DNA from: an uncultured Saprospiraceae bacterium
GTDB taxonomy: Bacteria; Bacteroidota; Bacteroidia; Chitinophagales; Saprospiraceae
Direction: 5' to 3'
DNA length: 64,000 bases
Assembly: GCA_938015805.1 (NCBI GenBank)
Contig: CALLXF010000045.1
Span: forward strand, 16,867 to 80,866
Numbering within the stretch: the stretch's first letter is position 1; each line of letters starts with the position of its first letter. Made by a program: the position numbers and the translations under genes. Positions 16,061 to 34,203 of this stretch are shown in pieces. Under the pieces are notes generated by a model. That model saw only the letters and a program-made list of their open reading frames with translations, made no database searches and was not told the origin of the DNA.

Positions 16061-19000
16061 ATGGGTTTTAGTAGATCATTAACAACATGGATACTTTGCA
16101 TTTTAAGTACGGCAGTATATTGCCAATCTATCGTCATTAATGAAATCCAAGCCTCTAATTCTCAGTTTACGGATCAAGATGGAGACACCCCAGATTGGAT
16201 AGAGGTTAGAAATCTTAGCACTACTGATATCAACCTAAAGGACTGGTCTCTCAGTGACGATAAGGAGGATTTAACTAAGTGGCTTTTTACTGATTTTTCG
16301 CTTACCGCGAATGAACATCTGCTAGTATGGGCCTCAGGAAAAAATAAACAAGAGATCGGTTATGCCCAGTCTATTATTACAGAAGGCGATGAATTTAAAT
16401 ACTTGATACCTAATTCTGCCCTCTCATCAGATTGGAATTCGTTAGCTTACGATGATTCTTCATGGGATACTGGAGTCTCTGGTTTTGGTTATGGGGATAA
16501 CGATGATAATACTCAGATTCCGGATGGTACGAGATCTATTTTTATTCGTAAAAAATTTACTATCGATGATATATCCTCTATAGTGGAACTCATCATGCAT
16601 ATAGATTTTGACGATGGATATGTTGCGTACATAAACGGGAAAGAAGTGTCCCGAGAAAATATTTCTGGGCAATTTCCAGCCTATGATCAGTTTGCTGATG
16701 ACTACCTAGAAGCTTTATTAATAAATGGACAAAAACCATTAACCATCTCGATAAATGATTTTACAGATATCATAGAAGAAGGAGAAAATGTCCTTGCTAT
16801 ACAAGTGCACAATTTTAATACTTCCTCATCTGACATGACGATGATTCCTTTTTTATCCAGTATATCTACTACTGACATACTAGATGACCCTATACCTATT
16901 CTAGAGGTTAATGACCTAGAGCTTCATACAAATTTTAAAATTTCCTCTAGCTCAGAAACAATTTATTTAAGTGATCCGACAGGACTGCTTATTGATAGTA
17001 TGAGCGTTAATAATTTTCCTGCAAACATTTCCATTGGGTTAAACCCAATCAATGATATCGTTTACTTCGAGACACCTACTCCTGGAACACTAAATAGCGG
17101 GACAGAACTCATAGGTATCGTTAATGATCAAATTAATTTCTCAGAACTTGGAGGAATTACTAATCCACTGGAATTATCACTTACGGGAATATCGCCACCT
17201 CATATAATCCGTTACGCACTAGACGGTGCTGTACCAGATGAATCCTCTCCTATTTATACCGCTCCTATTACTATTAACCAAAACACGGTCGTAAGGGCCC
17301 GAATATTCCGACAAAACTATTTGCCTTCTCCTACTCAAACAGAAACTTATTTTATAAACATAGATCATAACTTGCCGATCATATCCTTAGTTACCGACAC
17401 TGAAAATCTATTTAATGAAGAAACAGGAATATATAGCTATGGAGATAATTTTGAATTTGGATATCCCTATTTCGGTGCAAATTTTTGGCAAGACTGGGAA
17501 CGACCTATTCATTTTTCCATTTTAGAAACTGATGGTATTCATTTCTCTTTTGATGGAGGTATTAAAATTTTTGGAGGATGGTCTAGAGCAAATGACCAAA
17601 GATCTTTTTCCTTATTTGCAAGATCAAAATACGGGCCTAAGGAGATAGACTACCCGTTATTCTCAGATAATTCATATGAGACTTACCAGGCCTTTATTCT
17701 TCGTAATTCGGGAAATGACTGGCAGAGCACTATGATGAGAGATGGGACCCTAACAGGACTTATGAGAAGCTCTATTCTAGAAACCCAAGCTTACAAACCG
17801 ACTGTCGCATATATAAACGGTGAATTCTGGGGTTTATACAATATGCGAGAAAAAGTAAACGAACATTTTCTAGCGAGCCGTCATAATATCGATCCTGATG
17901 AAATACAAATCATGGAGCTTAATTCATTACCAATCCACGGATCATCAGAAGATTATGAGGATTTAATTGATTTTGCAAGCAACACAAATTTTGTAAATGA
18001 TATCAATTATGACATGATTTCTGATCTCGTCGACATCGATAATATCATCATGTACTATCTTGCACAGATCTATTTCAACAACACGGACTGGCCAGGTAAT
18101 AATATAAAATATTGGAAAGAGACCGGAGGCAAATGGAAATGGATCTTATTTGATACTGACTTTGGTTTTGGTAGATGGAATTACTTTGACTTTCAGAATA
18201 ATACTTTACAATTTGCATTACAAGCTAATGGACCTGAATGGCCAAATCCACCATGGTCTACTCTACTTTTTCGTAGACTAAATCAAAATTTATCATTTAG
18301 GCAAAAGTTTATTAATCAATTTGCAGATGAAATGAACTCTCGATTTCTGGAAGACCGAGTACATACACATATCGATAGCACTAGAGATTTAATAAGCTCA
18401 GAAATATCAAAACAACGTCAAAGATGGGGCGAATCTGCAAACGACTGGAGCGGCAATGTAAAAAACATGAAGGACTTCGCATCGGAGAGATCTTCGTTTT
18501 GCAGACAACATATTTTAGATGTATATAATCTTCCTGATGATCATATTTTACAAATCCTAAATACTCAGCCAGCTAATGGTTATGTTCAATTAAATAGTCT
18601 AACTATTGAGGAGTCTAACTGGAGTGGCTATTACTTTGAGAATGTACCTATCAGCGTAACTGCTATTCCCAGACCAGGCTATAAATTTGTAGAATGGCAA
18701 GCGGATATCTCCGGAACGGACCCTTATCAGGAAATTAATATGATTACCTCTATGCAAATCAGACCGATATGGGAATTAGACGAAGACTATCAGTATGGAG
18801 TCGTTATCAATGAAATCAATTATAACTCGGACTCTACAAACGATACAGGTGACTGGATCGAACTTTACAATTCTAATGACGAGGCGATGGATTTATCTGG
18901 ATGGATATTCAAAGATGATGAAAATGATCACGCCTTTATCATCTCAGAAGGAACAGTACTAGATAGTGATGATTATCTCATTATCGCAAAAGACCTAGAT

Positions 19001-19555
19001 GCTTTTACATCCATCTACACCGATGTGCAAAACGTAATCGGTAATTTTGACTTTGGTCTCAGCAGCACTGCCGATCAAGTAAGGATATATGATACCGATA
19101 ACTTATTACAAGATAGTGTCGCATATCTATCTATACAACCATGGCCTACCACTCCTAACGGACAAGGATTTACGTTAGAACTCATCAGCCCGACATTAGA
19201 CAACACCCTACCTCAAAACTGGAAGGGTATAAATCAATCAGGAAGCCCAGGAAGAATAAATCAAGAAATATCGTCTACTATCGAAACGGCTAAAAAATCT
19301 AATATTACGATTACCCCTAACCCAACATCAGATGTATTTACGCTAGATTTAGAGTCAGTACATGGTGAAGCTTACACATTAGAAATTATAGATACTGGAG
19401 GAAAAATAGTAAAATCTCTAACTAAAGATTTAAAAAATACAAATAATAAAAACCAAATAACCGTAAAAGTATCAGAGCTTCCACCTGGGCAATACTTTGT
19501 ACGCATAACTACTAATATTGGAAACTCTGATATTACCACTTTTGAAAAAATATAA
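16061..19555 (+). CDS. Secreted protein with lamin-tail domains, chitobiase C-terminal-like segment, CotH kinase domain and T9SS sorting domain
   Basis: LTD motifs (SIVINEIQASNSQFTDQDGDTPDWIEVRNLS; VVINEINYNSDSTNDTGDWIELYNSNDEAMDLSGW); CotH-like core NNTDWPGNNIKYWKETGGKWKWILFDTDFGFG; C-terminal ITPNPTSDVFTLDL. Confidence 0.87.
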   Translation: MGFSRSLTTWILCILSTAVYCQSIVINEIQASNSQFTDQDGDTPDWIEVRNLSTTDINLKDWSLSDDKEDLTKWLFTDFSLTANEHLLVWASGKNKQEIGYAQSIITEGDEFKYLIPNSALSSDWNSLAYDDSSWDTGVSGFGYGDNDDNTQIPDGTRSIFIRKKFTIDDISSIVELIMHIDFDDGYVAYINGKEVSRENISGQFPAYDQFADDYLEALLINGQKPLTISINDFTDIIEEGENVLAIQVHNFNTSSSDMTMIPFLSSISTTDILDDPIPILEVNDLELHTNFKISSSSETIYLSDPTGLLIDSMSVNNFPANISIGLNPINDIVYFETPTPGTLNSGTELIGIVNDQINFSELGGITNPLELSLTGISPPHIIRYALDGAVPDESSPIYTAPITINQNTVVRARIFRQNYLPSPTQTETYFINIDHNLPIISLVTDTENLFNEETGIYSYGDNFEFGYPYFGANFWQDWERPIHFSILETDGIHFSFDGGIKIFGGWSRANDQRSFSLFARSKYGPKEIDYPLFSDNSYETYQAFILRNSGNDWQSTMMRDGTLTGLMRSSILETQAYKPTVAYINGEFWGLYNMREKVNEHFLASRHNIDPDEIQIMELNSLPIHGSSEDYEDLIDFASNTNFVNDINYDMISDLVDIDNIIMYYLAQIYFNNTDWPGNNIKYWKETGGKWKWILFDTDFGFGRWNYFDFQNNTLQFALQANGPEWPNPPWSTLLFRRLNQNLSFRQKFINQFADEMNSRFLEDRVHTHIDSTRDLISSEISKQRQRWGESANDWSGNVKNMKDFASERSSFCRQHILDVYNLPDDHILQILNTQPANGYVQLNSLTIEESNWSGYYFENVPISVTAIPRPGYKFVEWQADISGTDPYQEINMITSMQIRPIWELDEDYQYGVVINEINYNSDSTNDTGDWIELYNSNDEAMDLSGWIFKDDENDHAFIISEGTVLDSDDYLIIAKDLDAFTSIYTDVQNVIGNFDFGLSSTADQVRIYDTDNLLQDSVAYLSIQPWPTTPNGQGFTLELISPTLDNTLPQNWKGINQSGSPGRINQEISSTIETAKKSNITITPNPTSDVFTLDLESVHGEAYTLEIIDTGGKIVKSLTKDLKNTNNKNQITVKVSELPPGQYFVRITTNIGNSDITTFEKI

Positions 19556-19932: not shown

Positions 19933-22900
19933 ATGAAAAACCCATTTATACACATTTATTTCCTCTTGTTTCTCTGTAGTATAAAACCCTACTCTACATT
20001 GGCACAAGCCACAGAAAAAGCAATCTATCTAATAGGTAATGCAGCAGGTACTGATAAAGAATGGGTCGATTTACTGATAGAAGAAATAGACAAAAACGAC
20101 TTTCCTTCCAGCGTTTATCTACTCGGCGACATCACAGATAAAGATGGTATACATCATAAACCAAAATCAAAAAACGAGAAACGACTCAAACGATATAAAC
20201 AAATAGAAAAGAAAACTAAGGCAAAAGTATATTTCTTAAGCGGTGACAGAGACTGGGATAATTCCGGCAAGAGTGGAAAGAAAAAAGTAAATCATCTAGA
20301 GAAATTTATTGAAAAAGATCTAAAATTAAAAAAGCGTTTTATTCCATCTTTTGCCTGTCCAGGTCCGCACTTGATCAAAGAAAATGATAACCTACTCGTA
20401 GTGGCGATAAACTCACAATGGTTTATACATCCTTATGATCGCCCCGAGGCACCTGATACAGAATGCCCTATTATTTTCGAAGCTGATTTCTGGGAAGAAT
20501 TTGAAGATATACTAGATGAAGCAAAGGATAAAAACATTCTCGTTTTAGCTCATCATCCTATTTATTCCTTTAGTCAGCATAATGGTAAAAAACTCGGACT
20601 AAAACACCTTATTCCTTTTTATGGATCCTTCTATGCATCCTATAAACAAAATATAGGTAAACCTACCGATCTAGCTTATCCTCGATATTTACATTACGTA
20701 GATAAAATGCGTTCTCTTATAAACGAACATAACGGTATAATATATGCGAGTGGTCATGATTATTATAATTCCATACTAGCCCACAATCAAAACATATTTA
20801 TCACAAGCAGTATCAGTAAAAAAAATCGAAAATGGGAAAACGATGAAGATTTGATTTTTGCCTCAAAGCAACCAAGTATAATAAAACTTAGTTACGATAG
20901 TCAAGGAAACATTTCATCTAAAATCCTGGAAGTAAAAAATGGTGAAATCGCGACCTATGATCGCATACTATTTAGTCCTATTGAAAATAATAAGCGTGCT
21001 ATTTTTAACAATCAAAGACTAAATAAAGAAGAAAACAATTATATCTATGAGCGAAGATTTTCCAATTTAAAAGACCGTGTACAAATAATTGCCGGCTCAG
21101 AATACAAAGCAAATCCATTTATGAGAAAATGGATGGGTAAAAATTATCGTAACGAATGGACGAAAAAAATTTCTGCTCCCATACTTGACATTTCTAAAAT
21201 GCATGGAGGTCTAAAACCATATGCCCGCGGCGGAGGACTACAGACTAATTCGCTCAAATTTAAAGGAGGTGATGGACAAAATTATGTATTTAGAGCGGTA
21301 GATAAAAACCCTGAACGAGCACTAGACGAGTTACTAAGTCAAACCATTTATCGTAAAATTACAAAACAACTTATTACCACACAGCATCCATACGGAGGAC
21401 TAGTAGCAGCGGAATTACTAAAAGCAACAGACATACTACATGCTACGCCTACCTTATACGTTATGCCTGACGATCCACAACTAGGTCCTTATCGAGAGGC
21501 TTTTGCCAATGTGTTAGGATTTCTAGAGATTAAACCTAAAACACTAAAAAAGAAAACAGGAAAAACCTTTGCAGATGCTGATGCCATAGTCTCAACGCAT
21601 CAGATGTTACGAGCGATGAATAATGATCATAAGCATAGAATGGATCCTTTGGCTTATGCAAAGGCTAGAGTTTTTGATATGTGGATCGGAGACTGGGATA
21701 AACATGAAGACAACTGGAAATGGGCAATGTATAAATCAGGGTCTTTACATATATACAAACCTATACCTAGAGATAGAGATCACGTTTTTTCTAAATGGGA
21801 AGGAATCATTCCAAAATTATCAGATCAATTTGTACCAAATGCAGAAAACTTTGGTCATCATTTCGTGAACTTAACCCAGCTTAATTATAAAGCCTGTAAT
21901 CTGGATCGTCGCTTTGGGGTAGAAATTACAAACGACCTATGGAAGGAAGCAGCCATCTACATTCAGTCTAAAATGTCCGAGAATGTAATAGACCTGTCCT
22001 TACAAAAATTACCTCCAGAATTAAACAAGGATCGTACAATAGAAATAAAAGAAAAACTACTTAGTAGAAAAAAAGAGCTTCCTAAGATGATAATAGATTA
22101 TCTTGATATTCTTAAAAACGAAGTCACCGTTTTAGGCTCTAACAAAAAAGAATATTTTGAGATATATAGACTTCCAGATGGACAAGTAGAAGTCTCTATC
22201 TATCCTCTCTCTTCCAAAGGAAAGATCAAAGATCAAATTTATCAACAGTCATACTATTTAGAAAAAACAAAAACAATTTACATCTATGGCTTAGGAGGTC
22301 AGGATGAGTTTGTAATCAGAGGAGAAGTAGATAACAGTATCAAAATAAGAATTATCCCAGGGGGCGGAAAAGATAATATAACCGATTTATCACAGGTTAA
22401 AGGTTCAAGTAAATTATCGCAGATATATCAAGGTAAAAAAGAAAAAGATATTATCTCTAAAAGCTCAGAGACAGCAGTAAAGCGTCCATTCCATCAAGCA
22501 ACATATGATTATCATAATTATCATCTGGATGCTCTGCTACCTTTTCTTAGTGTACAGTTTAGCGGATATAGCGGAATAGGTTTCTCCTTAGATGTAAAGA
22601 AAACAAAGCAGGGATATAATAAACCAGACTTTGCTAAAATCCATCATTTTAAACTTAAATATTATCCTAAGGTAAATGCCTATCGAGCTCAGTATCAATA
22701 TATGTTTAGGCATTTAATCCGAGATTGGGATTTTAAGACTAAACATTTGATCTCTGACCAACTCGATAAATATCCATTCTTTTTTGGATTAGGTAGTAAT
22801 ACTAGAGTAAATGATGAACTCCAAGATCAGAATTACTATCGCATAGATTTTGATACCTATCGAGCTAAATTTGGATTAGAAAAAGATTTTCTCTTTAAAA

Positions 22901-23604
22901 GTGACATGGGTATTTTCCTAAATTATGAATATAATGAAGTTTCATCTTTAGATGATTCTCAATCCCTATTGGATAATCCGGCATTTAATGATTTACAAGG
23001 CAAAGGTAAAAACCATTCATTCGACATAGAATCTCACTTAACACTAGATTTTAGAGATCACCAAATTTCAAGCTATCAAGGTTCACTCTTCCATCTAAAG
23101 CATCGGTTATATTACAGCTTTAATAATCAAAAACTAGGAGGTCATATTGATCTTAATATGAGTCATTATGAAACTATAAAAATACTTTTACCCATCACTT
23201 TTATCGGACGGATAGGTTCTTTAAAAACGTACGGTAGCTTACCTTTCTATCAGAGAAGTATACTAGGATCTAACACATACCTTAGAGGTTATGATCGCAA
23301 TAGATTTATAGGAAACCATGCGGCATACCTTAACCTAGAATCCAGAATACAGATTGATACATGGTATAATCTATTGGCTCCGATCACTTACGGCATATTT
23401 GGATTTTACGATCAGGGAACTGTATGGAATGACTTTAGCGAATTTTCTGACCAGGCGATAAACTGGCGGACTACCATAGGATTAGGTATTTTTGCAGCTC
23501 CTTTATCTAGAGATTTTACCTTTAGCATGAGCTATGCTCGCAATGACGAAAAAAGAGGTTACTTTGAACTCGGATTAGGTTTTGATCTAGATAGAGATTA
23601 CTAA
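19933..23604 (+). CDS. Multidomain protein: calcineurin-like metallophosphatase-like N-terminus, kinase-like middle domain, Omp85/BamA-like C-terminal barrel
   Basis: MPE-like order LIGNAAG..LLGDITD..SGDRDWD..LAHHPIYS..ASGHDYY; GDWDKHEDNW and PRDRDHVF in the middle; aromatic/Gly-alternating C-terminal third ending GYFELGLGFDLDRDY. Confidence 0.75.
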   Translation: MKNPFIHIYFLLFLCSIKPYSTLAQATEKAIYLIGNAAGTDKEWVDLLIEEIDKNDFPSSVYLLGDITDKDGIHHKPKSKNEKRLKRYKQIEKKTKAKVYFLSGDRDWDNSGKSGKKKVNHLEKFIEKDLKLKKRFIPSFACPGPHLIKENDNLLVVAINSQWFIHPYDRPEAPDTECPIIFEADFWEEFEDILDEAKDKNILVLAHHPIYSFSQHNGKKLGLKHLIPFYGSFYASYKQNIGKPTDLAYPRYLHYVDKMRSLINEHNGIIYASGHDYYNSILAHNQNIFITSSISKKNRKWENDEDLIFASKQPSIIKLSYDSQGNISSKILEVKNGEIATYDRILFSPIENNKRAIFNNQRLNKEENNYIYERRFSNLKDRVQIIAGSEYKANPFMRKWMGKNYRNEWTKKISAPILDISKMHGGLKPYARGGGLQTNSLKFKGGDGQNYVFRAVDKNPERALDELLSQTIYRKITKQLITTQHPYGGLVAAELLKATDILHATPTLYVMPDDPQLGPYREAFANVLGFLEIKPKTLKKKTGKTFADADAIVSTHQMLRAMNNDHKHRMDPLAYAKARVFDMWIGDWDKHEDNWKWAMYKSGSLHIYKPIPRDRDHVFSKWEGIIPKLSDQFVPNAENFGHHFVNLTQLNYKACNLDRRFGVEITNDLWKEAAIYIQSKMSENVIDLSLQKLPPELNKDRTIEIKEKLLSRKKELPKMIIDYLDILKNEVTVLGSNKKEYFEIYRLPDGQVEVSIYPLSSKGKIKDQIYQQSYYLEKTKTIYIYGLGGQDEFVIRGEVDNSIKIRIIPGGGKDNITDLSQVKGSSKLSQIYQGKKEKDIISKSSETAVKRPFHQATYDYHNYHLDALLPFLSVQFSGYSGIGFSLDVKKTKQGYNKPDFAKIHHFKLKYYPKVNAYRAQYQYMFRHLIRDWDFKTKHLISDQLDKYPFFFGLGSNTRVNDELQDQNYYRIDFDTYRAKFGLEKDFLFKSDMGIFLNYEYNEVSSLDDSQSLLDNPAFNDLQGKGKNHSFDIESHLTLDFRDHQISSYQGSLFHLKHRLYYSFNNQKLGGHIDLNMSHYETIKILLPITFIGRIGSLKTYGSLPFYQRSILGSNTYLRGYDRNRFIGNHAAYLNLESRIQIDTWYNLLAPITYGIFGFYDQGTVWNDFSEFSDQAINWRTTIGLGIFAAPLSRDFTFSMSYARNDEKRGYFELGLGFDLDRDY

Positions 23605-23613
23605 CAGATATTA

Positions 23614-24612
23614 ATGATTACAAAATTAATTTTAGAAAGAGAGTTTGTTATACAATATGTAACTAGCCCATACAGTAGATTAAAAACTCTCCTAGCATTT
23701 TTTATAATATGTCTATTAGCATCCTGCAATTCATCACCTGAATTAAAAAAAATTACATTTTCTAAATCACCCAGTTTATTGAACAAAAGTGTTAACACAA
23801 AAAACTCAACTGCGGTTTACGATTATACCAGCCCCGATAATACTCATATCCTCGCCTCATTTTTAGATGAAATATCAGGACTATCCTATGATCAAGAAAA
23901 AAATGTTTTTATCACGCATGATGATGAAAACGGATCATATTATCTTCTTCATAAGGAATCTTTTAGGATTGAGAAAAAAATCGACTTTGGAAAGAAAGAT
24001 GATTATGAGTCTATAGAAAAAGTAAAAAGTGATATCGTTATCTGTAGAAACGATGGAACTCTATTTTTTCATCATGAGAAATCAAGTAACACCTCAACTT
24101 ATACCACACCGTTATCCAAAAAAAATAATGTCGAAGGTTTATGCTATCAACAAGATAAAAATATCTTACTCCTAGCATGTAAAGGAAATTCCTTAGCAGA
24201 TGAAAGCCAAAACATAAAATCTATTTATGCATTTGACCTAGAAGAAAAGACATTAAACCCTACGCCGTACATCACAATTAAGAATGAAGATCTTAAAAAA
24301 TACGTTTTAGAAACTAATGAAGATGTAAGCAAATCTCAGCGTAAAAAGCTAATCAAAAGAATTAAAGAATTTGCTCCTTCTGGGATCGCTATCCAACCTG
24401 ATTCCAAAGAATTCTATATACTATCTGGAAGAGGATCTACACTCATCATTTTAGATAAAAACAAAATACTAAAACGTATTGTTTATTTGGACAAAGCGAT
24501 CATACCTCAACCAGAAGGAATCACTTTTGACGACAAAGGCCATTTGTATATTGCTACAGAGGGACAAGGTTTTAATGCTAAAATATTCCAGTTTAAGAAA
24601 GCCGATAAATGA
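23614..24612 (+). CDS. SdiA-regulated/esterase-like-phytase type beta-propeller lipoprotein
   Basis: Lipobox LLASCNS; LDEISGLSYDQEKNVFITHDDENG; IPQPEGITFDDKGHLYIATEGQG. Confidence 0.7.
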   Translation: MITKLILEREFVIQYVTSPYSRLKTLLAFFIICLLASCNSSPELKKITFSKSPSLLNKSVNTKNSTAVYDYTSPDNTHILASFLDEISGLSYDQEKNVFITHDDENGSYYLLHKESFRIEKKIDFGKKDDYESIEKVKSDIVICRNDGTLFFHHEKSSNTSTYTTPLSKKNNVEGLCYQQDKNILLLACKGNSLADESQNIKSIYAFDLEEKTLNPTPYITIKNEDLKKYVLETNEDVSKSQRKKLIKRIKEFAPSGIAIQPDSKEFYILSGRGSTLIILDKNKILKRIVYLDKAIIPQPEGITFDDKGHLYIATEGQGFNAKIFQFKKADK

Positions 24613-25793
24613 TCAAATTCTTATACGCCATTTCCATACTATGCTTCTTATCCAGTTGCGGCACGTTGCATAAACCATATTATAACGATACGGTAAAAGA
24701 CTGGAAAAATAATAATCCTTTACCTCAACAAGAAATCATCCATAGTCTATACCTCATAGGCGACGCTGGCGAACTAGATAACAATCTCCAAAAAACCAAT
24801 GCGGTTACTACAGCTCTTAAAAAACAAATTGCCTTAGAAAAATCAAAAACGAGTTTGGTGTTTTTAGGTGATAATGTATATCCTCACGGCTTGCCTAAAA
24901 AAGATGCTCACGATAGAGCGTATACAGAAGAAATTCTTCTAGAGCAAATCAGTTGTGCCTCAGCACATCAAGGAAAGACCTACTTTATTCCGGGAAATCA
25001 TGACTGGAATAAGCATTACCCTGGCGGTAGAAAAGCCATACTGAGACAAGAAAAATTTATAGAAGCCTATAACACCGAGGCAAACCCGATCAGCTTTTTA
25101 CCTGATAATGCCTGTAGTGATCCTGAGATCATAGAAATAAATGATAATCTAGTATTTGTTTTTTTGGATACCCAGTGGTGGTTACAGAGATGGCAATACG
25201 AAAAAGATATAAATCAAGGTTGTAAAATACAAACTAAGCAAGAATTTCTAGATCAGATGAGCAGTATCTTTTCGACTTATCAGAGTAAAGAACTTGTCAT
25301 TATGATGCACCATCCGATACATAGTGATGGAGTACATGGAGGACATTTTGGGTTTAAACATCATGTATTTCCATTGACGGAAGCCTATCGACACTTATGG
25401 ATACCGTTACCCTTTATAGGATCTCTTTACCCTGCCTTTCGGCGAATAAAAGGGTCACGACAAGACATCCCTAATAATCATAACAAGACATTAATGCAAG
25501 AGCTAAAACGTATGGCACAAACTTCAGGTGGTCAGGTCATTTTTGCATCAGGACACGATCATGGATTACAGTACTACGACCAGGATAAGATCAAATATAT
25601 CATCAGTGGAGCGGGTGGAAAAATAGATTTTGTAAAAAGAAATGGAAACGCAGACTACGCCAGAGGAAAACGAGGTTTTGTAAAAATAGATTTTTACAAA
25701 AACAAAGAATCCTGGGCTTACTATTATGTAATTAATCCTGACAAAGATGAGACAATGCTCGAATTACGAGTTAACCTCAGGAAACCAGATTGA
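24609..25793 (+). CDS. Calcineurin-like metallophosphatase lipoprotein
   Basis: Lipobox FLSSCGT; intact motif set LIGDAGE, LGDNVYP, PGNHDWN, MHHPIHS, ASGHDHGLQ; 4-nt ATGA overlap with upstream gene. Confidence 0.88.
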   Translation: MIKFLYAISILCFLSSCGTLHKPYYNDTVKDWKNNNPLPQQEIIHSLYLIGDAGELDNNLQKTNAVTTALKKQIALEKSKTSLVFLGDNVYPHGLPKKDAHDRAYTEEILLEQISCASAHQGKTYFIPGNHDWNKHYPGGRKAILRQEKFIEAYNTEANPISFLPDNACSDPEIIEINDNLVFVFLDTQWWLQRWQYEKDINQGCKIQTKQEFLDQMSSIFSTYQSKELVIMMHHPIHSDGVHGGHFGFKHHVFPLTEAYRHLWIPLPFIGSLYPAFRRIKGSRQDIPNNHNKTLMQELKRMAQTSGGQVIFASGHDHGLQYYDQDKIKYIISGAGGKIDFVKRNGNADYARGKRGFVKIDFYKNKESWAYYYVINPDKDETMLELRVNLRKPD

Positions 25794-26335: not shown

Positions 26336-28618
26336 TTACTCCAGGATAGTAAACACATTAGACTTTTCTTTTCCTGATGGGGTTACTATAGTCAGTGTAT
26401 GTTTTCCTGGCGATAAATCCAATGGCAATTTATGAGATCCAGATGTTACAGAAATCAATTTATGATCCACAAACCAGTAAAGAGAATCTACTGCATCCCC
26501 TACCACCGCTTTACCTACAAGAGACTGCTGACGCTGATCTATATCGATAGGCAATAAAAGCTCTGACTGATCCGAGGGATACATAATTTCAATCTGATCA
26601 GACATTTCTGTACATCCGGGTAAATAAGGAGGCAGACGGTAAGATTTTCCAGTAAACTTTTTATAATAATTATCTATTGTGAGCGGTAACACAAAAGCTG
26701 TAGTGGATACGACCTCACTAGCACAATTATGAAAGACTCTAAACTGCTCAGTCTGATCTAAAGTAACATGTCTATGGTATTTACATGTGGCTAAACTATT
26801 ATTTGTATATGGTAACCACACATCAGTTTTTTGTTTGCATATAGCTGTCGCTACATAGCCTGACTGAAAACATATCTCTTTAGATACAAAACCTGAAATC
26901 GGTCTCTGTAATTTGCTGGCCCGAGGTAATAATTCAAAAATATCAAACAAAATAGGAGCTGCCTTTTTTACACCCATTAGTCCTGGTTTCCCTTCTCCAT
27001 CTGCGTTTCCTACCCACACTAAAACAGTATACTCAGACGTAGAACCTACAGACCATGCATCCCTAAACCCAAAACTAGTACCTGTTTTCCAAGAGATATC
27101 TTGGGATCCACTAAAATATTTCCAACCATCCTGGCTATCAGGACGATGCACACCTTTAAGCATTTCTAAGATAGTAAAAGATGTTGCTGGAGTAAATGGA
27201 AAATCGTAATATTCCTTATTAACGGAATGTATATACGATGGCACTACTCCCTCTTGTGATTTTGCAGATCGCACAAGATTCATATATCCAGCGGCCAATT
27301 CTAATCCGGTGACTTCTCCCCCTCCTAAAATTAAAGACAATCCATAATGATCTGGTAATTTATCTAATGATGAAAATTGCAATTCTCGCAGATCTTCATA
27401 AAACGGAGCGACACCATACTGCTGTAGTAATTGTACTGCAGGAATATTTAAGGACTGCGTTAGTGCCGATTCTGCATGGACTACCCCTCTATAATTTTTA
27501 TCAAAATTAACAGGGCTATAACCGTTATAGAATATTGGAATATCTTCCAATAGACTCTGAGGACCTATCATTCCTGATTCTAAGGAAGCAGCGTACAAAA
27601 ATGGTTTTAGAGTACTTCCAGGACTACGTAAAGCAGTAAGTATATCGACATCATTACTACAGTTATCCGGACATGCGGTATTAGCCACATAGGCAGCGAT
27701 GGTACCATCGTTACGCAGTACAATAGCTGCTATATTATTTATATCATTTTCTAATGCATAACGATCTCTGTAGTTTTGGGTAATCCTTTTTACATTAGTT
27801 TGCAGTGATCGGTCCAAAGTAGTTACATAACTAAAAGCATTACGTTCCATCTTTTTACATTCCTGCAAAAGGTGCGGAGCTAGAGATGGAAATGTACTGC
27901 TCTGACTGGGTAGATTTTCTAAAATCGATAGTCGATAACTAATAGAATCTATAAGGCTCTGAGCCAATAGTTTTTTTAGCAATGCATTCCTTTTATTGAC
28001 TAAGACCTCCTGTCCCTTACCTGGATAAATCTTAGATGGAGCATTGGGTAAAACAGATAAGGTAGCTGCCTCACTCCATGATAATAAAGATGCATCTTTA
28101 CTATAATATCGATGAGCCGCGGCACAGTAACCGATCGTGTTACCACCATAAGGAGCATATTGGGCATACAGCATTAGTATCTCATTCTTAGAATATTTTA
28201 TTTCCAGAGCAAAAGCTAAAAGCAGTTCTTTACATTTTTGCCAATACGTACGCTTCTGATTTCCTTCATGAATTCTGGCTAGCTGCATAGTCAGTGTACT
28301 ACCCCCTCGGACTATCCTACCCGCTTTAATATTGTCTTTTACTGCATGTATAATAGATACCGGATTTATGCCTGGATGATAATAAAAATATTGATCCTCA
28401 AATAAAGTAAGACATATAGCTAGCTTCTCTGGTAGTGCTTCTGTACATTTTATTCTCCATTGCTGATCATCAGAGACTTGAGCATTAATAATCTCTCCAT
28501 CCGCATATAATACGTAAGCAAAACGATCCTCAAAAGCAATAGTCGTAGATAAATAAAGGATATAAAGAACGAGTCCTAGCAATGTAAACAAACTATATTT
28601 TAAGCATCTTTTTTTCAC
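26336..28618 (-). CDS. pbpC: Penicillin-binding protein 1C
   Basis: Transglycosylase motifs (EDQYFYYHPGINPVSI, GGSTLTMQLAR), transpeptidase (SPGSTLKPFLYA, WKTGTSFGFRDAW), PBP1C-type C-terminal domain. Confidence 0.93.
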   Translation of the reverse strand: MKKRCLKYSLFTLLGLVLYILYLSTTIAFEDRFAYVLYADGEIINAQVSDDQQWRIKCTEALPEKLAICLTLFEDQYFYYHPGINPVSIIHAVKDNIKAGRIVRGGSTLTMQLARIHEGNQKRTYWQKCKELLLAFALEIKYSKNEILMLYAQYAPYGGNTIGYCAAAHRYYSKDASLLSWSEAATLSVLPNAPSKIYPGKGQEVLVNKRNALLKKLLAQSLIDSISYRLSILENLPSQSSTFPSLAPHLLQECKKMERNAFSYVTTLDRSLQTNVKRITQNYRDRYALENDINNIAAIVLRNDGTIAAYVANTACPDNCSNDVDILTALRSPGSTLKPFLYAASLESGMIGPQSLLEDIPIFYNGYSPVNFDKNYRGVVHAESALTQSLNIPAVQLLQQYGVAPFYEDLRELQFSSLDKLPDHYGLSLILGGGEVTGLELAAGYMNLVRSAKSQEGVVPSYIHSVNKEYYDFPFTPATSFTILEMLKGVHRPDSQDGWKYFSGSQDISWKTGTSFGFRDAWSVGSTSEYTVLVWVGNADGEGKPGLMGVKKAAPILFDIFELLPRASKLQRPISGFVSKEICFQSGYVATAICKQKTDVWLPYTNNSLATCKYHRHVTLDQTEQFRVFHNCASEVVSTTAFVLPLTIDNYYKKFTGKSYRLPPYLPGCTEMSDQIEIMYPSDQSELLLPIDIDQRQQSLVGKAVVGDAVDSLYWFVDHKLISVTSGSHKLPLDLSPGKHTLTIVTPSGKEKSNVFTILE

Positions 28619-28626
28619 TGTACTTA

Positions 28627-31600
28627 CTATTTTACCACTGCCCAGAACCCCTTAGTTTTGGCTCTTATTCTGGCATCATACATCGCCTCACAAAACGCTG
28701 GAGCAGCCCAGTATTTCCCTTCGTATGTGGCATTCATTTTAAATCTAAACATTTTCTTTTCGTTCTTTTTTAAATCAAAATAGAGATGTACTCTATCATC
28801 TCTGATATCTTGATAATCCGCTACACTACCTTCATCAAAACTCGAATCTTCTTTTAGTCTCTGGTTTAAAATTTCCCAGCCAGATGGAAAGATTCCTGTC
28901 AGTGCCATATTTTCATAATCATCTCTGACGCCTGTATGTTTAACAGAATACTGAATTACAAAATCGGTTCCTTTTATAATTTCTTGTGGCTTGAGGATTT
29001 TACCTTCAAGATCTGTGTAAAGAATTTCCAGAGATAGATCATTGGCCTCAGCCTGAGTGTCATCCCGTAACGGTTGCCCTGAAATAACAACAGAAGTATA
29101 TAATTCTGACTCTCCTTTATTAGTTACAGATATTTTAGACTGAGTTATAGCATCTTCATCTAAATCATAAGACTGAGGTTTCTCATCTATCTCTACATCT
29201 AACAGTTGCTGAGTATCAGATAGGATAATATCATACTTGATGCTATCCTCTACCTTGTCTAGCGAGGATACAAATTTTGCAAACGTAATGAGGCTTTGGG
29301 CTCTATCCTGAGTTGATAATTGACTTACTTTATCGGCATCAAAATTAGCGATCATTTCATCTATCAGCACTTTTGCTTTAAGCTTATCTCCACTATCGAT
29401 TAATACTCTAGCTATGATGGCCTGATCTCTTAATCCACTTCCAAAATTTCCTCCTAATTCGCGATAATCACTTACTGTTGCTGTAGCAGAATCGATCATT
29501 GCCTTAGCTAATGATTCTTCTCCTAAGATGGTAAAACTGTGAGCCAATATCCATCTTGCTGTATTATGCAAATTAGGTAATAAACGTAATCGATTCATCG
29601 CTGCATAGTTAGGTTTTCCTGCCTGGGCTAATGTATATAACCTGTAAGCATATCCGATAGTACGATAGTCAGAAGTAGTTCTATTATTATTAGAGGAAAT
29701 GATGTCTATATTCTCAGATGCTTTATACTGATAGTCGATACATTTTTTGATCATCGACTCAGGAACTTCGTAACCATATTTTTTTGCTTCGAGTAAAAAC
29801 TGGAATGTATAAGACGTACCCCACTCATTTGCACGATTACCTCCAGGCCAATAAGAAAATCCCCCATTAGGCATTTGTAGAAATCGTAATTTTTGAATAG
29901 CAGCTTTATATTGCTGACGATATTTTAGCTGATCTACATCATCTAGTAAGTTCATTTTGTATAAATAAATCTGCGGAAATATCCTAGAGATGGTTTGCTC
30001 TAGACATCCATGAGGATAGTTAGACAACCACTGTACTTGTGGAGCAAACGAAAAATTTAATCCTTTACTTACCGTCACTTGACCCGTATTAGTACCCTCC
30101 ATCCCGACGGACTTATATTCTATACCTTTTGTTTGGCCGGCACTGACCATACTACTAAAACTCTTAGATATCAGTGGAGCTGACGGACGTAAATCTATGT
30201 TAATTGTCTCTTTATATTGATATGATCCAGAGATGACCTCTACTATCACTTCCGTCACACCGATAGTGGTTCCTGTCTCTATCTCAAAGAATATATCTTT
30301 TTCTCCTTTTTTATCAAAAATGATTTCTTGTGTCGATGACCCGAGTACTTTGATAGCATCACTTGCTTTTACTGTGGCAGTTACTTTTTTAATATCATCT
30401 TGCATTGTAAATACGGTAACAGGTAATTTCATTTTTTCCTCAGGTCCTAGTACCCTAGGGAGCGTCGCATATAACATCAGTGGCTTAGTAACAGGCACTG
30501 TTTTTTCGTATCTCCCTAAAGCAGAACCATCGGTAGCTACGATCATAGCTCTGACTGATCCGGCGTAATCATTTATCGTAAACTTATGAGACCTGGTCTC
30601 ACCAGCATTTAATTTAAAAGGGCCGATATGCTTTACTACAGGTTTAAATCTCCGGGCTTTTGCGGTAGGTTTTATAGCCGCTGAGCCATCGCCTCCTACT
30701 GCAAGTAAAGAAGTATACTCTCCTAAAAAGCGCTGGAATATCTGTCGATACATATCCCATGTTTTTACATTTAAGCTTTCTTTACCAAAAAATAAAGCCC
30801 ATGGATTTGGAGTTTTAAACTGGGTAATATCTAGTAAACCTTCGTCGACTATGGCTAGTGTGTAGGACATGCTTCGATTATCAGCTTCAGAAATCTGTAC
30901 CGTAAATGACTCATCCGTTTTTAGTTCGTCAGGCATATCTAATTCCGGCTTTAAAATAGTAGATGGATCATATACCTTTATCGGCTTTATCCCAAACAAT
31001 CTTAAAGGTCTATCATTTTTATGGCTTTCCCACGCTTGTATTAAATGTACGTGCACATAAGCTGTGGGAGCCATTTTGCTAGTCACAGGGATTTGCATCG
31101 CTATCGGTAAAGAGCTTCCTTTAACGATTTTTTTATAAAGAATTCTTCCTCCATTTTCTACAGTTACTAAAAATCTACCAGTGCTCATCGCTGGAAGCTC
31201 AAATGATAAATTATCTCCAACCTCATAGTCGGTTTTCTCTATTAGTAGCGGTAATACTTCTAGCTGACTTACCTCCTGATTATCCTCTCTCCACTGATTA
31301 CTATAACTATAAATGACTCTACTTATGGAGTGTCCGCTTTTGATATCTTTTACTTCAAGTAAAAAACGACCATAGTCTTTAAAAGAAAGAGTACCACCCT
31401 CTTTTCCTATAGTCATGGAATAATCCTTTAGCTTAGAAGTTGTGTAATTAGTTAGAGCCGCATAGTTACCACTCGCTCCGAACTGATACCACCAGTTATG
31501 ATCTATCTTAAATAACTTTACTTGTACCTCCCGTTGTGCTGCCTGACCATTTTGATCTAAAGCAGCAAGTATAACGGCTTCATTATCCTTTATATAAATT

Positions 31601-34203
31601 TCCGTCCCGTTATCACCTCCAGGGAATTTAGCTCCGATATAATGCGAGTAAGGAGAATACTTTATGGCTTTCATATCGCTACTAAAAGCACCGCCTTTTT
31701 CAAAAGATCGAAGCTCAAAATTAAACTGCATCATCGATGGATAAGAATCATCTGCATCAGTAGGAATATCAAAATTAAGTACACCCTTACTGTTTGTTAC
31801 CTCATCTTTTACAATTCCTATATCGCTTTGTTTTTCTTTACGCAAGTCGTTAAAAATGTAATTGGTGTAATCCGCTCCAAAGGGATTAGTCAGTACTTTT
31901 TGTAACATATATATCTCAGTTCGTAATCCCTTGGCTTCTAATCCGTGCATCCACTTAACAGAGACAGGTGCTGTTTTAGGATCTGTATGTTTAACGATTT
32001 TTTCATTGGCGAAAGCCATTTCCATCTTTAACCTATTAGGTCGGATCGTTTCTATCCTTACACTTTGCTTATGTACCTTACCACCCATTTTAAATAGCAG
32101 TCTCCAGTAGCCAGTCGGATCATTAATATCTGTTACAAACTGACAATCGTAAATTCCATTAGAATTATTCTTTACCGTCCATTCTTTGACCAGTTTATTA
32201 GTCGGATCGTATAACTTTAGAGCGACTGGTAATCGTTCTGGTAAAATATTATCTGGACTATATACGATCGTATTCATGTGTACAGTATCACCTGGTCTCC
32301 ACACATCTCGATCCCCGTAGAAGAACACCTTAGTCGCTCCATCCCAGTTTTTTCCTTCTACTTGGAAAGTACTAAGGGATAATGCTTTTGCATCTTGTAC
32401 AGGAAGGTAAGTGGTCTGATTATTATAGGTGGCTTTCGCCAAAAAAGCTTTTTGATCCGGAAGAGGAATATCCGCCATGCCGGAACCATCTGTGTAACCT
32501 GCGGCGATCTCTTTTCCTTGAATATTATACAATGTAATACTGGCATTAGATATCGGATCTGCCTTAGAAATACTAGAGGAATAGATGAAGAAACTGTTTT
32601 TCTCTGGTTCGTATTTAGCTACTAATCCTACGTCAGAACACATCAGTAATCGAGCATCCAAAATATCAGAATCGTATGATAGATCACATGGATTTTTATA
32701 GGTCTCGTCCTGATACTGATCACTATAATGTTGGCTACCTAGATTATTATTGTAATAACTTCCATAATAATAGTCATCCTCATAATAGTCATAATCATAC
32801 CGTATCCTAACCCACGGTTTATCAAAATCTATAGCATCTATGTGATCCCTACGATCGGTTCCTTGCGACTGAGGACAAGGATATAAATTATTTTCATTAG
32901 GGATCGTTAAGATTACTTTGTAAAGAGCACCTGTCTCTTTTTTAATTACACGATCCAGTGCGATGGAATGATAGCTATCTATAAAAGGTCTTTTTTTATC
33001 CATAGTTATTATCGTATCTAAGGTAAGACGACCGATATTTTCTAATCCTCGTTGGAAAACATATGGTTCGGCATTTTCTTGATAAAATCGGGGTATATTA
33101 TGATCGTAGATTTTTAAGATCCTAAGTCTAAACCCATTTGCTGACACAAGCGACACCGGCAATTCCCAACGATTACCCGGCGGTAAAATATTTCCTTTCT
33201 CTGCAATCTTTACTTTAGGTTTAGGAGGTGTAAAAAACAACTCTTTAGTGTAGGTATCCCTAAGAGGAAAACCAGCCATATTTTTTATTCCTGGTGATAT
33301 AGACAAATCAAAATATCCATAGTTTTCATTTTTAAAATAGACTTCAACATGATTATTATTGATTTTAGTCTGCGTGATAATCCTTCCTTTTACGTTTATA
33401 AGTCCATCTATTTTTTGATTTTTTTGTAATGGGTCTGTAAAAGTTATTTTTAAATGATTGTTATTTACAATGCGATAATTATGAAAAGAAAAATCAGAAG
33501 TAGATGGAATAGCGAGTCTAAGATCAGCTTTGTCTTTCACATTTATCGCTTCCATAGAAAGTTCTACATTCACAAAATCAGGGTCCTCTCTTCTTTCTAT
33601 ATTATGTATTGTAAACTGAGATCGTCTCTTATTATTTTTCTGATGAGTCCAGGTAATATTTAACTTTTTATCACCCTGTCTTGCAATAAGACTATTTTCT
33701 AAAACTTGAGGACGTGGCTCACACACTCCAAATTTTACAACTCCTGAATAACTTACCTTTTCCATTGATTTATTGACAGGTGGATCCATAGTGATATCCC
33801 ATGTCTGCGTTTGTGCTTCTAGAGGAAAACTAAATGACTGCATATCGATAGGCATTTCTGTTAGCATCCCTACATTAAATTTTACATTATACTCCACATT
33901 ATGTTTTATATCTGCATTCTTTATACGAATCTGCTTACCAGAAGAAGTCAGCTGGTAATTACCTCCGATGGGTGGACTTATTTCAAAAAGACCACTAGGT
34001 AAAATATATCCCTCCGGTAATTGGAATCCCAGTTTTACAAAAACATCATCACATCTAGACACTGGGCTTTGACTATAGCCTGTTATATAATTTGTAAATT
34101 TTTTATACTCGATTTTAGATTCATCGATAGCTGATTTTTTACAGCTAGTAATTAAGAATGTAATTAGTATTACAAAGAGAAAAGCAGATTTAGATAGATT
34201 CAT
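28627..34203 (-). CDS. Bacterial alpha-2-macroglobulin family lipoprotein with thioester motif
   Basis: 1858 aa; lipobox LITSCKKS; thioester motif YPHGCLEQTISR; PNGGFSYWPGG; MG-domain phrases (FFYGDRDVWRPGDTVHMNTIVY); directly upstream of pbpC in the same orientation. Confidence 0.93.
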   Translation of the reverse strand: MNLSKSAFLFVILITFLITSCKKSAIDESKIEYKKFTNYITGYSQSPVSRCDDVFVKLGFQLPEGYILPSGLFEISPPIGGNYQLTSSGKQIRIKNADIKHNVEYNVKFNVGMLTEMPIDMQSFSFPLEAQTQTWDITMDPPVNKSMEKVSYSGVVKFGVCEPRPQVLENSLIARQGDKKLNITWTHQKNNKRRSQFTIHNIERREDPDFVNVELSMEAINVKDKADLRLAIPSTSDFSFHNYRIVNNNHLKITFTDPLQKNQKIDGLINVKGRIITQTKINNNHVEVYFKNENYGYFDLSISPGIKNMAGFPLRDTYTKELFFTPPKPKVKIAEKGNILPPGNRWELPVSLVSANGFRLRILKIYDHNIPRFYQENAEPYVFQRGLENIGRLTLDTIITMDKKRPFIDSYHSIALDRVIKKETGALYKVILTIPNENNLYPCPQSQGTDRRDHIDAIDFDKPWVRIRYDYDYYEDDYYYGSYYNNNLGSQHYSDQYQDETYKNPCDLSYDSDILDARLLMCSDVGLVAKYEPEKNSFFIYSSSISKADPISNASITLYNIQGKEIAAGYTDGSGMADIPLPDQKAFLAKATYNNQTTYLPVQDAKALSLSTFQVEGKNWDGATKVFFYGDRDVWRPGDTVHMNTIVYSPDNILPERLPVALKLYDPTNKLVKEWTVKNNSNGIYDCQFVTDINDPTGYWRLLFKMGGKVHKQSVRIETIRPNRLKMEMAFANEKIVKHTDPKTAPVSVKWMHGLEAKGLRTEIYMLQKVLTNPFGADYTNYIFNDLRKEKQSDIGIVKDEVTNSKGVLNFDIPTDADDSYPSMMQFNFELRSFEKGGAFSSDMKAIKYSPYSHYIGAKFPGGDNGTEIYIKDNEAVILAALDQNGQAAQREVQVKLFKIDHNWWYQFGASGNYAALTNYTTSKLKDYSMTIGKEGGTLSFKDYGRFLLEVKDIKSGHSISRVIYSYSNQWREDNQEVSQLEVLPLLIEKTDYEVGDNLSFELPAMSTGRFLVTVENGGRILYKKIVKGSSLPIAMQIPVTSKMAPTAYVHVHLIQAWESHKNDRPLRLFGIKPIKVYDPSTILKPELDMPDELKTDESFTVQISEADNRSMSYTLAIVDEGLLDITQFKTPNPWALFFGKESLNVKTWDMYRQIFQRFLGEYTSLLAVGGDGSAAIKPTAKARRFKPVVKHIGPFKLNAGETRSHKFTINDYAGSVRAMIVATDGSALGRYEKTVPVTKPLMLYATLPRVLGPEEKMKLPVTVFTMQDDIKKVTATVKASDAIKVLGSSTQEIIFDKKGEKDIFFEIETGTTIGVTEVIVEVISGSYQYKETINIDLRPSAPLISKSFSSMVSAGQTKGIEYKSVGMEGTNTGQVTVSKGLNFSFAPQVQWLSNYPHGCLEQTISRIFPQIYLYKMNLLDDVDQLKYRQQYKAAIQKLRFLQMPNGGFSYWPGGNRANEWGTSYTFQFLLEAKKYGYEVPESMIKKCIDYQYKASENIDIISSNNNRTTSDYRTIGYAYRLYTLAQAGKPNYAAMNRLRLLPNLHNTARWILAHSFTILGEESLAKAMIDSATATVSDYRELGGNFGSGLRDQAIIARVLIDSGDKLKAKVLIDEMIANFDADKVSQLSTQDRAQSLITFAKFVSSLDKVEDSIKYDIILSDTQQLLDVEIDEKPQSYDLDEDAITQSKISVTNKGESELYTSVVISGQPLRDDTQAEANDLSLEILYTDLEGKILKPQEIIKGTDFVIQYSVKHTGVRDDYENMALTGIFPSGWEILNQRLKEDSSFDEGSVADYQDIRDDRVHLYFDLKKNEKKMFRFKMNATYEGKYWAAPAFCEAMYDARIRAKTKGFWAVVK

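Follow-up and report, generated by a model that had tools for sequence, protein, structure and literature searches.

A protein-kinase-like domain in a candidate periplasm-facing Omp85 fusion protein of an uncultured Saprospiraceae bacterium and its relatives

The window analysed here is a 64,000-nucleotide stretch of DNA from an uncultured Saprospiraceae bacterium (assembly GCA_938015805.1, contig CALLXF010000045.1, positions 16,867 to 80,866 of the forward strand). It contains a gene for a 1223-residue protein in which a domain related to purple acid phosphatases (PAP), a protein-kinase-like (PKL) domain, and an Omp85/BamA-type barrel are joined. The explanation that we favor, and to which we give about an even chance, is that this protein is an outer-membrane-anchored, periplasm-facing enzyme with a PKL transferase and a PAP-type partner. 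The barrel would serve as the membrane anchor, and a substrate in the envelope would be modified by the PKL domain, acting as a nucleotide-dependent transferase of the HipA/CotH/PI4K type. The PAP-type domain may originally have been the opposing phosphatase or a phosphate-binding partner; in the clade of the window protein, it may have turned into a conserved module that does not hydrolyze and that serves docking or regulation. Two genes further downstream, apparently in the same operon, lies the gene for an intact PAP-type phosphatase, which could provide the activity in trans. In support of this explanation, R454, K458, D587, D614, and D616 of the PKL domain are essentially constant among relatives, while the state of the PAP site changes at least eight times on a tree built without the catalytic motif. 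The fusion gene is laid out as follows.

19933 to 23604, + strand: whole coding sequence, 1223 residues, with PAP-like domain, PKL domain, beta-rich linker, and Omp85 barrel
19933 to 20010, + strand: putative Sec signal peptide, residues 1 to 26, MKNPFIHIYFLLFLCSIKPYSTLAQA, seen in the sequence, with a presumed cleavage site
20014 to 20967, + strand: PAP/calcineurin-type metallophosphatase-like domain, residues 28 to 345, active site substituted
21124 to 22137, + strand: PKL domain, residues 398 to 735, outside Pfam and NCBIfam families
22138 to 22512, + strand: beta-rich linker, residues 736 to 860, nearly all strands in the model, replacing POTRA domains
22513 to 23601, + strand: Omp85/BamA-type 16-stranded barrel, residues 861 to 1223, with the LRGY loop motif, from model and sequence

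Sequence searches of PDB, Pfam, and NCBIfam, using either the window protein or the PKL alignment, turned up nothing informative on the middle domain. A Pfam search with the whole protein gave no matches, and neither the window protein nor 26 family members matched Pfam HipA (PF07804) or CotH (PF08757). An AlphaFold model of the PKL domain, built from 84 aligned sequences, had a mean predicted local distance difference test score (pLDDT) of 94.4. Its fold matches in PDB at E ≤ 0.001 numbered 13, every one of them to CtkA, HipA, PI4KII-alpha, or CotH, with Rio2 and Fam20C next. The best matches were 3akj (CtkA, E = 5.6e-6) and 4pu4 (E = 4.9e-5); PI4K type II was matched by 4hnd (E = 2e-4) and CotH by 5jda and 5jd9. 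Global template modeling scores of these matches were modest (0.3 to 0.5), as expected with distant kinase-fold relatives. In a profile comparison that is independent of structure, the PKL domain scored 35.0 against CotH, where the best of 299 column-shuffled controls reached 26.0; CotH and HipA, two accepted PKL families, scored 35.4 against each other. In the profile alignment, GDWDKHEDNW falls on the CotH motif NxD....N and PRDRD on CotH DTD, and GDWDKHEDN is in register with NxDxHxxN of HipA. Changing either D228 or D251 inactivates CotH (PMC7821199), and by our own assignment these residues would belong to the two motifs aligned with the PKL domain. Based on the models, the middle domain has a protein-kinase-like fold on the HipA/CotH/PI4K branch. 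The original prediction, made from the sequence alone, had proposed a HipA/PI4K-type fold for this domain, and the AlphaFold model, the PDB fold search, and the CotH profile match bear it out; the open reading frame and the motif coordinates that it gave were also correct.

Candidate pocket residues of the PKL domain map as follows.

From approximately 21202, + strand: Gly-rich segment HGGLKPYARGGG, read in the sequence
21229 to 21237, + strand: GGG of the glycine-rich hairpin, residues 433 to 435, nucleotide-loop candidate (conserved in 82 to 83 of 84; hairpin in the model)
21304 to 21306, + strand: K458, directly after the third strand, ATP-lysine candidate (K in 84 of 84 and in 101 of 102)
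21367 to 21369, + strand: Q479 in helix 472 to 483, Asp in relatives (80 of 83 and 95 of 102) and lost in the window protein
21526 to 21528, + strand: E532, hinge-strand acidic residue candidate (E in 83 of 84)
21688 to 21717, + strand: catalytic-loop motif GDWDKHEDNW with D587, D589, H591, D593, and N594; D589 is at the position of the HipA/CotH catalytic Asp
21766 to 21789, + strand: metal-Asp motif PRDRDHVF with the invariant D614 and D616, aligned with CotH DTD

Among 84 aligned relatives, R454, K458, D587, H591, W597, D614, D616, and G624 were all invariant. In a set of 102 sequences, R454, D587, D614, and D616 were present in every one, K458 and H591 in 101, and E532 and D593 in 100, and position 594 was always Asn or Gln. 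The window protein has the PKL motif residues K458, D589xxxxN594, and D614/D616, yet position 589 is Gly or Ser in 34 of the 102 sequences (D 68, G 21, S 13; in the 84 aligned relatives, D 50, G 23, S 11). Of the pattern looked for at the outset, an invariant GDWDxxxxN and DRD, the residues D587, H591, D614, and D616 conform, whereas D589 does not. All 35 copies with an intact PAP domain have D589 together with Q594.

Several observations weigh against the transferase explanation. Position 589, although it aligns with the catalytic Asp, is occupied by Gly or Ser in 32 of the 33 members of the clade of the window protein. The helix residue Asp479, kept in 95 of 102 sequences, is Gln in the window protein, which deviates at 7 of 60 conserved columns in total, including R655C and Y724L. 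The similarity between the PKL and HipA profiles is not significant, as 42 of 299 shuffles reach the score, although the register is the same. Finally, to our knowledge, ATP is not known to be present in the periplasm.

The window protein is the sole exception among the 33 clade members in keeping D589, and all members have N594. With an altered PAP site, N594, and a retained D589, it is an intermediate that takes a basal place in the Gly/Ser clade (tree support of 97 for the 36-row clade and 87 for its own placement). We disfavor the idea that its D589 is a reversion, since the tree puts it basal to that clade. By the number of deviations at conserved columns, it is among the worse members, and its branch is long. 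In this clade, D587 may replace D589 as the base, the chemistry may be a different one, or the domain may be a pseudokinase. It is possible, if doubtful, that nucleotide and metal are bound by the PKL domain with no ordinary phosphorylation, the outcome being, for example, AMP transfer as in SelO or pure sensing, and that the clade of the window protein, in which both the PAP site and the DxxxxN Asp are altered, is a receptor- or regulator-like branch. The joint occurrence of an altered PAP site, N594, and Gly/Ser589 with all other pocket residues kept would fit this, as would the Gln479 of the window protein and the departure of the clade from the ancestral gene neighborhood, in which an HD-PycTM gene lies beside 0 of 34 copies versus 21 of 35. 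Against it, the window protein keeps D589, the invariant D587 might serve as the base, and all 13 copies with a degenerate PAP site outside this clade keep D589. A live phosphotransferase, which the original prediction had considered possible, is plausible in the family at large, while for the window copy it is made uncertain by Gly/Ser589 in its clade and by its own D479Q.

Returning to the transferase explanation, its second component is the PAP-type domain. The PAP part of the full-length model matches Plasmodium GAP50 (3tgh, E = 9e-9), supporting a PAP fold. In 35 of 35 relatives with an intact PAP domain, the site consists of D36, D66, Y69, N105, H106, H207, H208, H275, and H277, i.e., the purple-acid-phosphatase pattern GDxG, GDxxY, GNHD, HH, and GHxH; every PAP residue checked is intact in approximately one-third of the aligned copies. 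The window protein has N36 (20038 to 20040, in LIGNAA), D66, D69, D105, and R106 (SGDRDWD from 20242), H207, H208, H275, and Y277 (GHDY from 20752), and the dinuclear-metal ligands of purple acid phosphatases (GDxG, GDxxY, GNH, H, and GHxH) are for the most part not preserved in it. Its 33-member clade shares this state: N36 in 32 of the 32 members with a letter at this position, D66 in 33, D105 in 32, R or K106 in 32, H207 in 33, and H275 in 30, while Y69 and H277 are gone. The members come from several families. On other branches, 13 copies have an altered PAP site, with losses that are differing and irregular. Its fixation throughout the 33-member clade makes the altered site look like an alternative one that was retooled rather than decayed. 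The description of this domain as a dead phosphatase is therefore apt in that most metal ligands are gone and inapt in that it implies decay.

Canonical homologs, which were to mark the window copy as a decayed allele, do exist (35 copies), but its substitutions recur throughout the clade. We rejected the candidate of a decayed single allele on the grounds that identical substitutions are fixed in 33 members. That the window protein is a degenerate paralog, a relic of a once-active fusion, is very unlikely. Its D479Q, R655C, and Y724L, the 7 deviating columns out of 60, and the long branch are what such a relic might display, whereas the reading frame is open over its full length, the gene cluster is compact, 32 relatives share the PAP substitutions, and both models are confident.

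The protein is predicted from its sequence to be exported. Its full-length model (pLDDT 88.8, predicted template modeling score 0.85) has 16 long C-terminal strands, as counted from the DSSP listing, and the barrel fold matches BamA, TamA, and Sam50 in PDB. The C-terminus matches NCBIfam Omp85_fam with E = 4e-19, under the curated cut-off, and the LRGY motif, in which R1118 and G1119 are nearly invariant, conforms to the (V/L)RG(F/Y) motif of 16-stranded Omp85 barrels. The Omp85/BamA-type barrel that had been anticipated is, thus, supported by profile and fold match. The linker of the full-length model has no POTRA-like alpha/beta unit. We note that conserved GLxGxDxF and GGxGxD-like stretches lie in the linker (22138 to 22512, + strand), where POTRA domains would sit. 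The PAP and PKL domains are probably periplasmic, a placement favored by the topology of Omp85 proteins and by the patatin-Omp85 fusion PlpD, whose patatin domain was shown to be periplasmic (PMC11116518).

An Omp85 barrel with the LRGY motif and without POTRA domains would also suit a role in Omp85-type assembly or translocation, with the PAP and PKL folds acting only as periplasmic binding platforms that replace POTRA domains. GAP50, the best structural match of the PAP fold and itself a PAP-fold protein, is called an anchor in its PDB title, which points the same way. We regard such a structural role as improbable: a scaffold would not need several invariant charged residues in the PKL pocket, and PKL genes exist without a barrel.

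The expectation that conserved homologs exist was borne out widely, and the PKL domain is common among environmental bacteria. Of 61 related genomes, 24 gave a match in a protein search. In a sample of 297 genomes from across the phylum, the PKL domain was found in 112, which represent 62 of the 141 genera sampled. More than 580 loci were detected in GTDB species genomes from Bacteroidota, Ignavibacteria, Chlorobi, Gemmatimonadota, and one deltaproteobacterial metagenome-assembled genome. Relatives were absent from the viral contigs searched, and PADLOC assigned the window protein to no defense family. The PKL domain occurs in four architectures: PAP-PKL-Omp85, PKL-Omp85, stand-alone PKL, and membrane-anchored PKL. 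PKL-Omp85 proteins without PAP are found in Gemmatimonadota, Ignavibacteria, Chlorobi, and others; three of these genes (L081, L089, and L097) have a separate metallophosphatase gene directly upstream. Two stand-alone PKL proteins (L175 and L176) have lipoprotein-like N-termini and an adjoining metallophosphatase gene. Four PKL proteins of approximately 429 residues (L169, L170, L172, and L173) have an N-terminal membrane anchor and the motifs DWDRH and DRDNAF; these free-standing proteins are a simpler target for biochemistry. Because it occurs in PKL-Omp85, lipoprotein-like, and membrane-anchored forms, the PKL domain appears to be an autonomous envelope module, and gene fusion, gene adjacency (at the five loci with a neighboring metallophosphatase gene), and the gene order in the window suggest that it is tied to PAP-type phosphatases.

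More broadly, we tentatively propose, at somewhat short of an even chance, an unrecognized family of kinases or nucleotidyl transferases that would act outside the cytoplasm, in most cases on an outer-membrane tether, and form writer-eraser pairs with PAP-type phosphatases in more than one-third of the genomes of the phylum; in one clade, with both active sites altered, the protein would now be a sensor or an enzyme of another kind. We know of scarcely any phosphorylation in the periplasm or on the outer membrane of Gram-negative bacteria, for which the lack of a known ATP pool is part of the reason. A kinase-like domain that is fixed to a barrel and linked to a phosphatase makes periplasmic phosphorylation testable in culturable Hymenobacter, Dyadobacter, and Pedobacter.

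Two genes follow the fusion gene in the window.

23614 to 24612, + strand: SdiA-regulated/phytase-like beta-propeller gene, 332 residues, 9 bp downstream of the fusion gene
24609 to 25793, + strand: stand-alone metallophosphatase gene, 394 residues, 4-bp overlap with the propeller gene

Based on this tight spacing, the fusion, propeller, and phosphatase genes probably form one operon. The downstream phosphatase keeps intact PAP motifs (GDAG, GDNVY, GNHDW, HHP, and GHDH). Similar to the PAP portion of canonical fusions, it may be the leftover of a second copy. Tandem copies exist: at L068, a partial-PAP copy is followed by an SdiA gene and then by a canonical copy, an order matched by the window, where the phosphatase alone represents the second copy. 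A search of the source genome for a second PKL-barrel remnant found none, and no synteny was found between the window and the nearest copies with an altered PAP site.

Given as raw counts without a background rate, the neighbors of canonical relatives include HD+PycTM genes (29 loci in 22 genera), SdiA-regulated propellers (20 loci in 18 genera), class III cyclases (18 in 10), polyphosphate kinases (17 in 5), DUF2652 (7 in 7), and SixA-like histidine phosphatases (6 in 5). The commonest neighbor, an HD domain fused to the Pycsar-effector-like PycTM (e.g., L073:9052-10326, - strand), is often accompanied by a class III cyclase matching the PycC models of PADLOC; this set is possibly a housekeeping cyclic-nucleotide module instead of a defense system. 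Among relatives in the clade of the window protein, an HD or SdiA context was found in 0 of 34; the window nevertheless has the SdiA gene, and the HD-PycTM and polyphosphate kinase genes of its genome are on other contigs. PPK1 lies within a few kilobases of altered-PAP Hymenobacter copies and of PAP-free copies in Ignavibacteria and Longimicrobiaceae (L041-L060, L058, L081, L085, L089, L091, and L097). Elsewhere in the window, a penicillin-binding protein 1C-type gene adjoins a bacterial alpha-2-macroglobulin gene (26336 to 34203, - strand), an arrangement that is common.

Compared with known systems, the clade of the window protein differs from purple acid phosphatases in lacking D36, Y69, N105, H106, and H277. 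The catalytic-loop pattern of PI4K type II is similar to that of the PKL domain, but the window protein has no sequence match to PI4K type II and belongs to a bacterial outer membrane. Unlike the cytosolic kinases HipA and CtkA, the PKL protein is predicted to be exported, and it has no HipA_C match. With CotH (PF08757), an atypical spore-coat kinase, it shares the PKL fold and the aligned DxxxxN and DxD motifs; it differs in having no Pfam CotH match, DWD in place of NxD, and a membrane-anchored fusion. We note that a true CotH kinase domain, of a family different from the PKL domain, is encoded just upstream (16061 to 19555, + strand) in a separate protein with lamin-tail domains that is sorted by the type IX secretion system, and that the genome has eight CotH matches. 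Like PlpD, the window protein combines an Omp85 barrel with an enzymatic-type N-terminal domain, but the enzyme fold is another one, and PlpD has a POTRA domain while the window protein has none.

The closest known architecture is the "Metallo" subfamily, the joining of a PF00149 calcineurin-like domain to an Omp85-type barrel that Heinz and Lithgow catalogued in 2014 (PMC4104836). In that survey, "noNterm" and "Metallo" were accepted as Omp85 subfamilies despite their other N-termini, and "Metallo" proteins were taken for metalloproteases; the word "kinase" does not occur in its main text (PMC4104836). The window protein has this architecture, with the PF00149-type motifs read from its canonical relatives; unlike canonical "Metallo" members, its clade does not keep the phosphatase site. 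In the open-access literature, we found no description of a kinase-like domain in PAP-Omp85 proteins. What is known is, thus, a functionally unexplained Omp85 architecture, and what is new is that it carries a PKL family that is not in Pfam. The transferase explanation would supply a function for "Metallo" Omp85 proteins, for which the 2014 survey had guessed a protease (PMC4104836).

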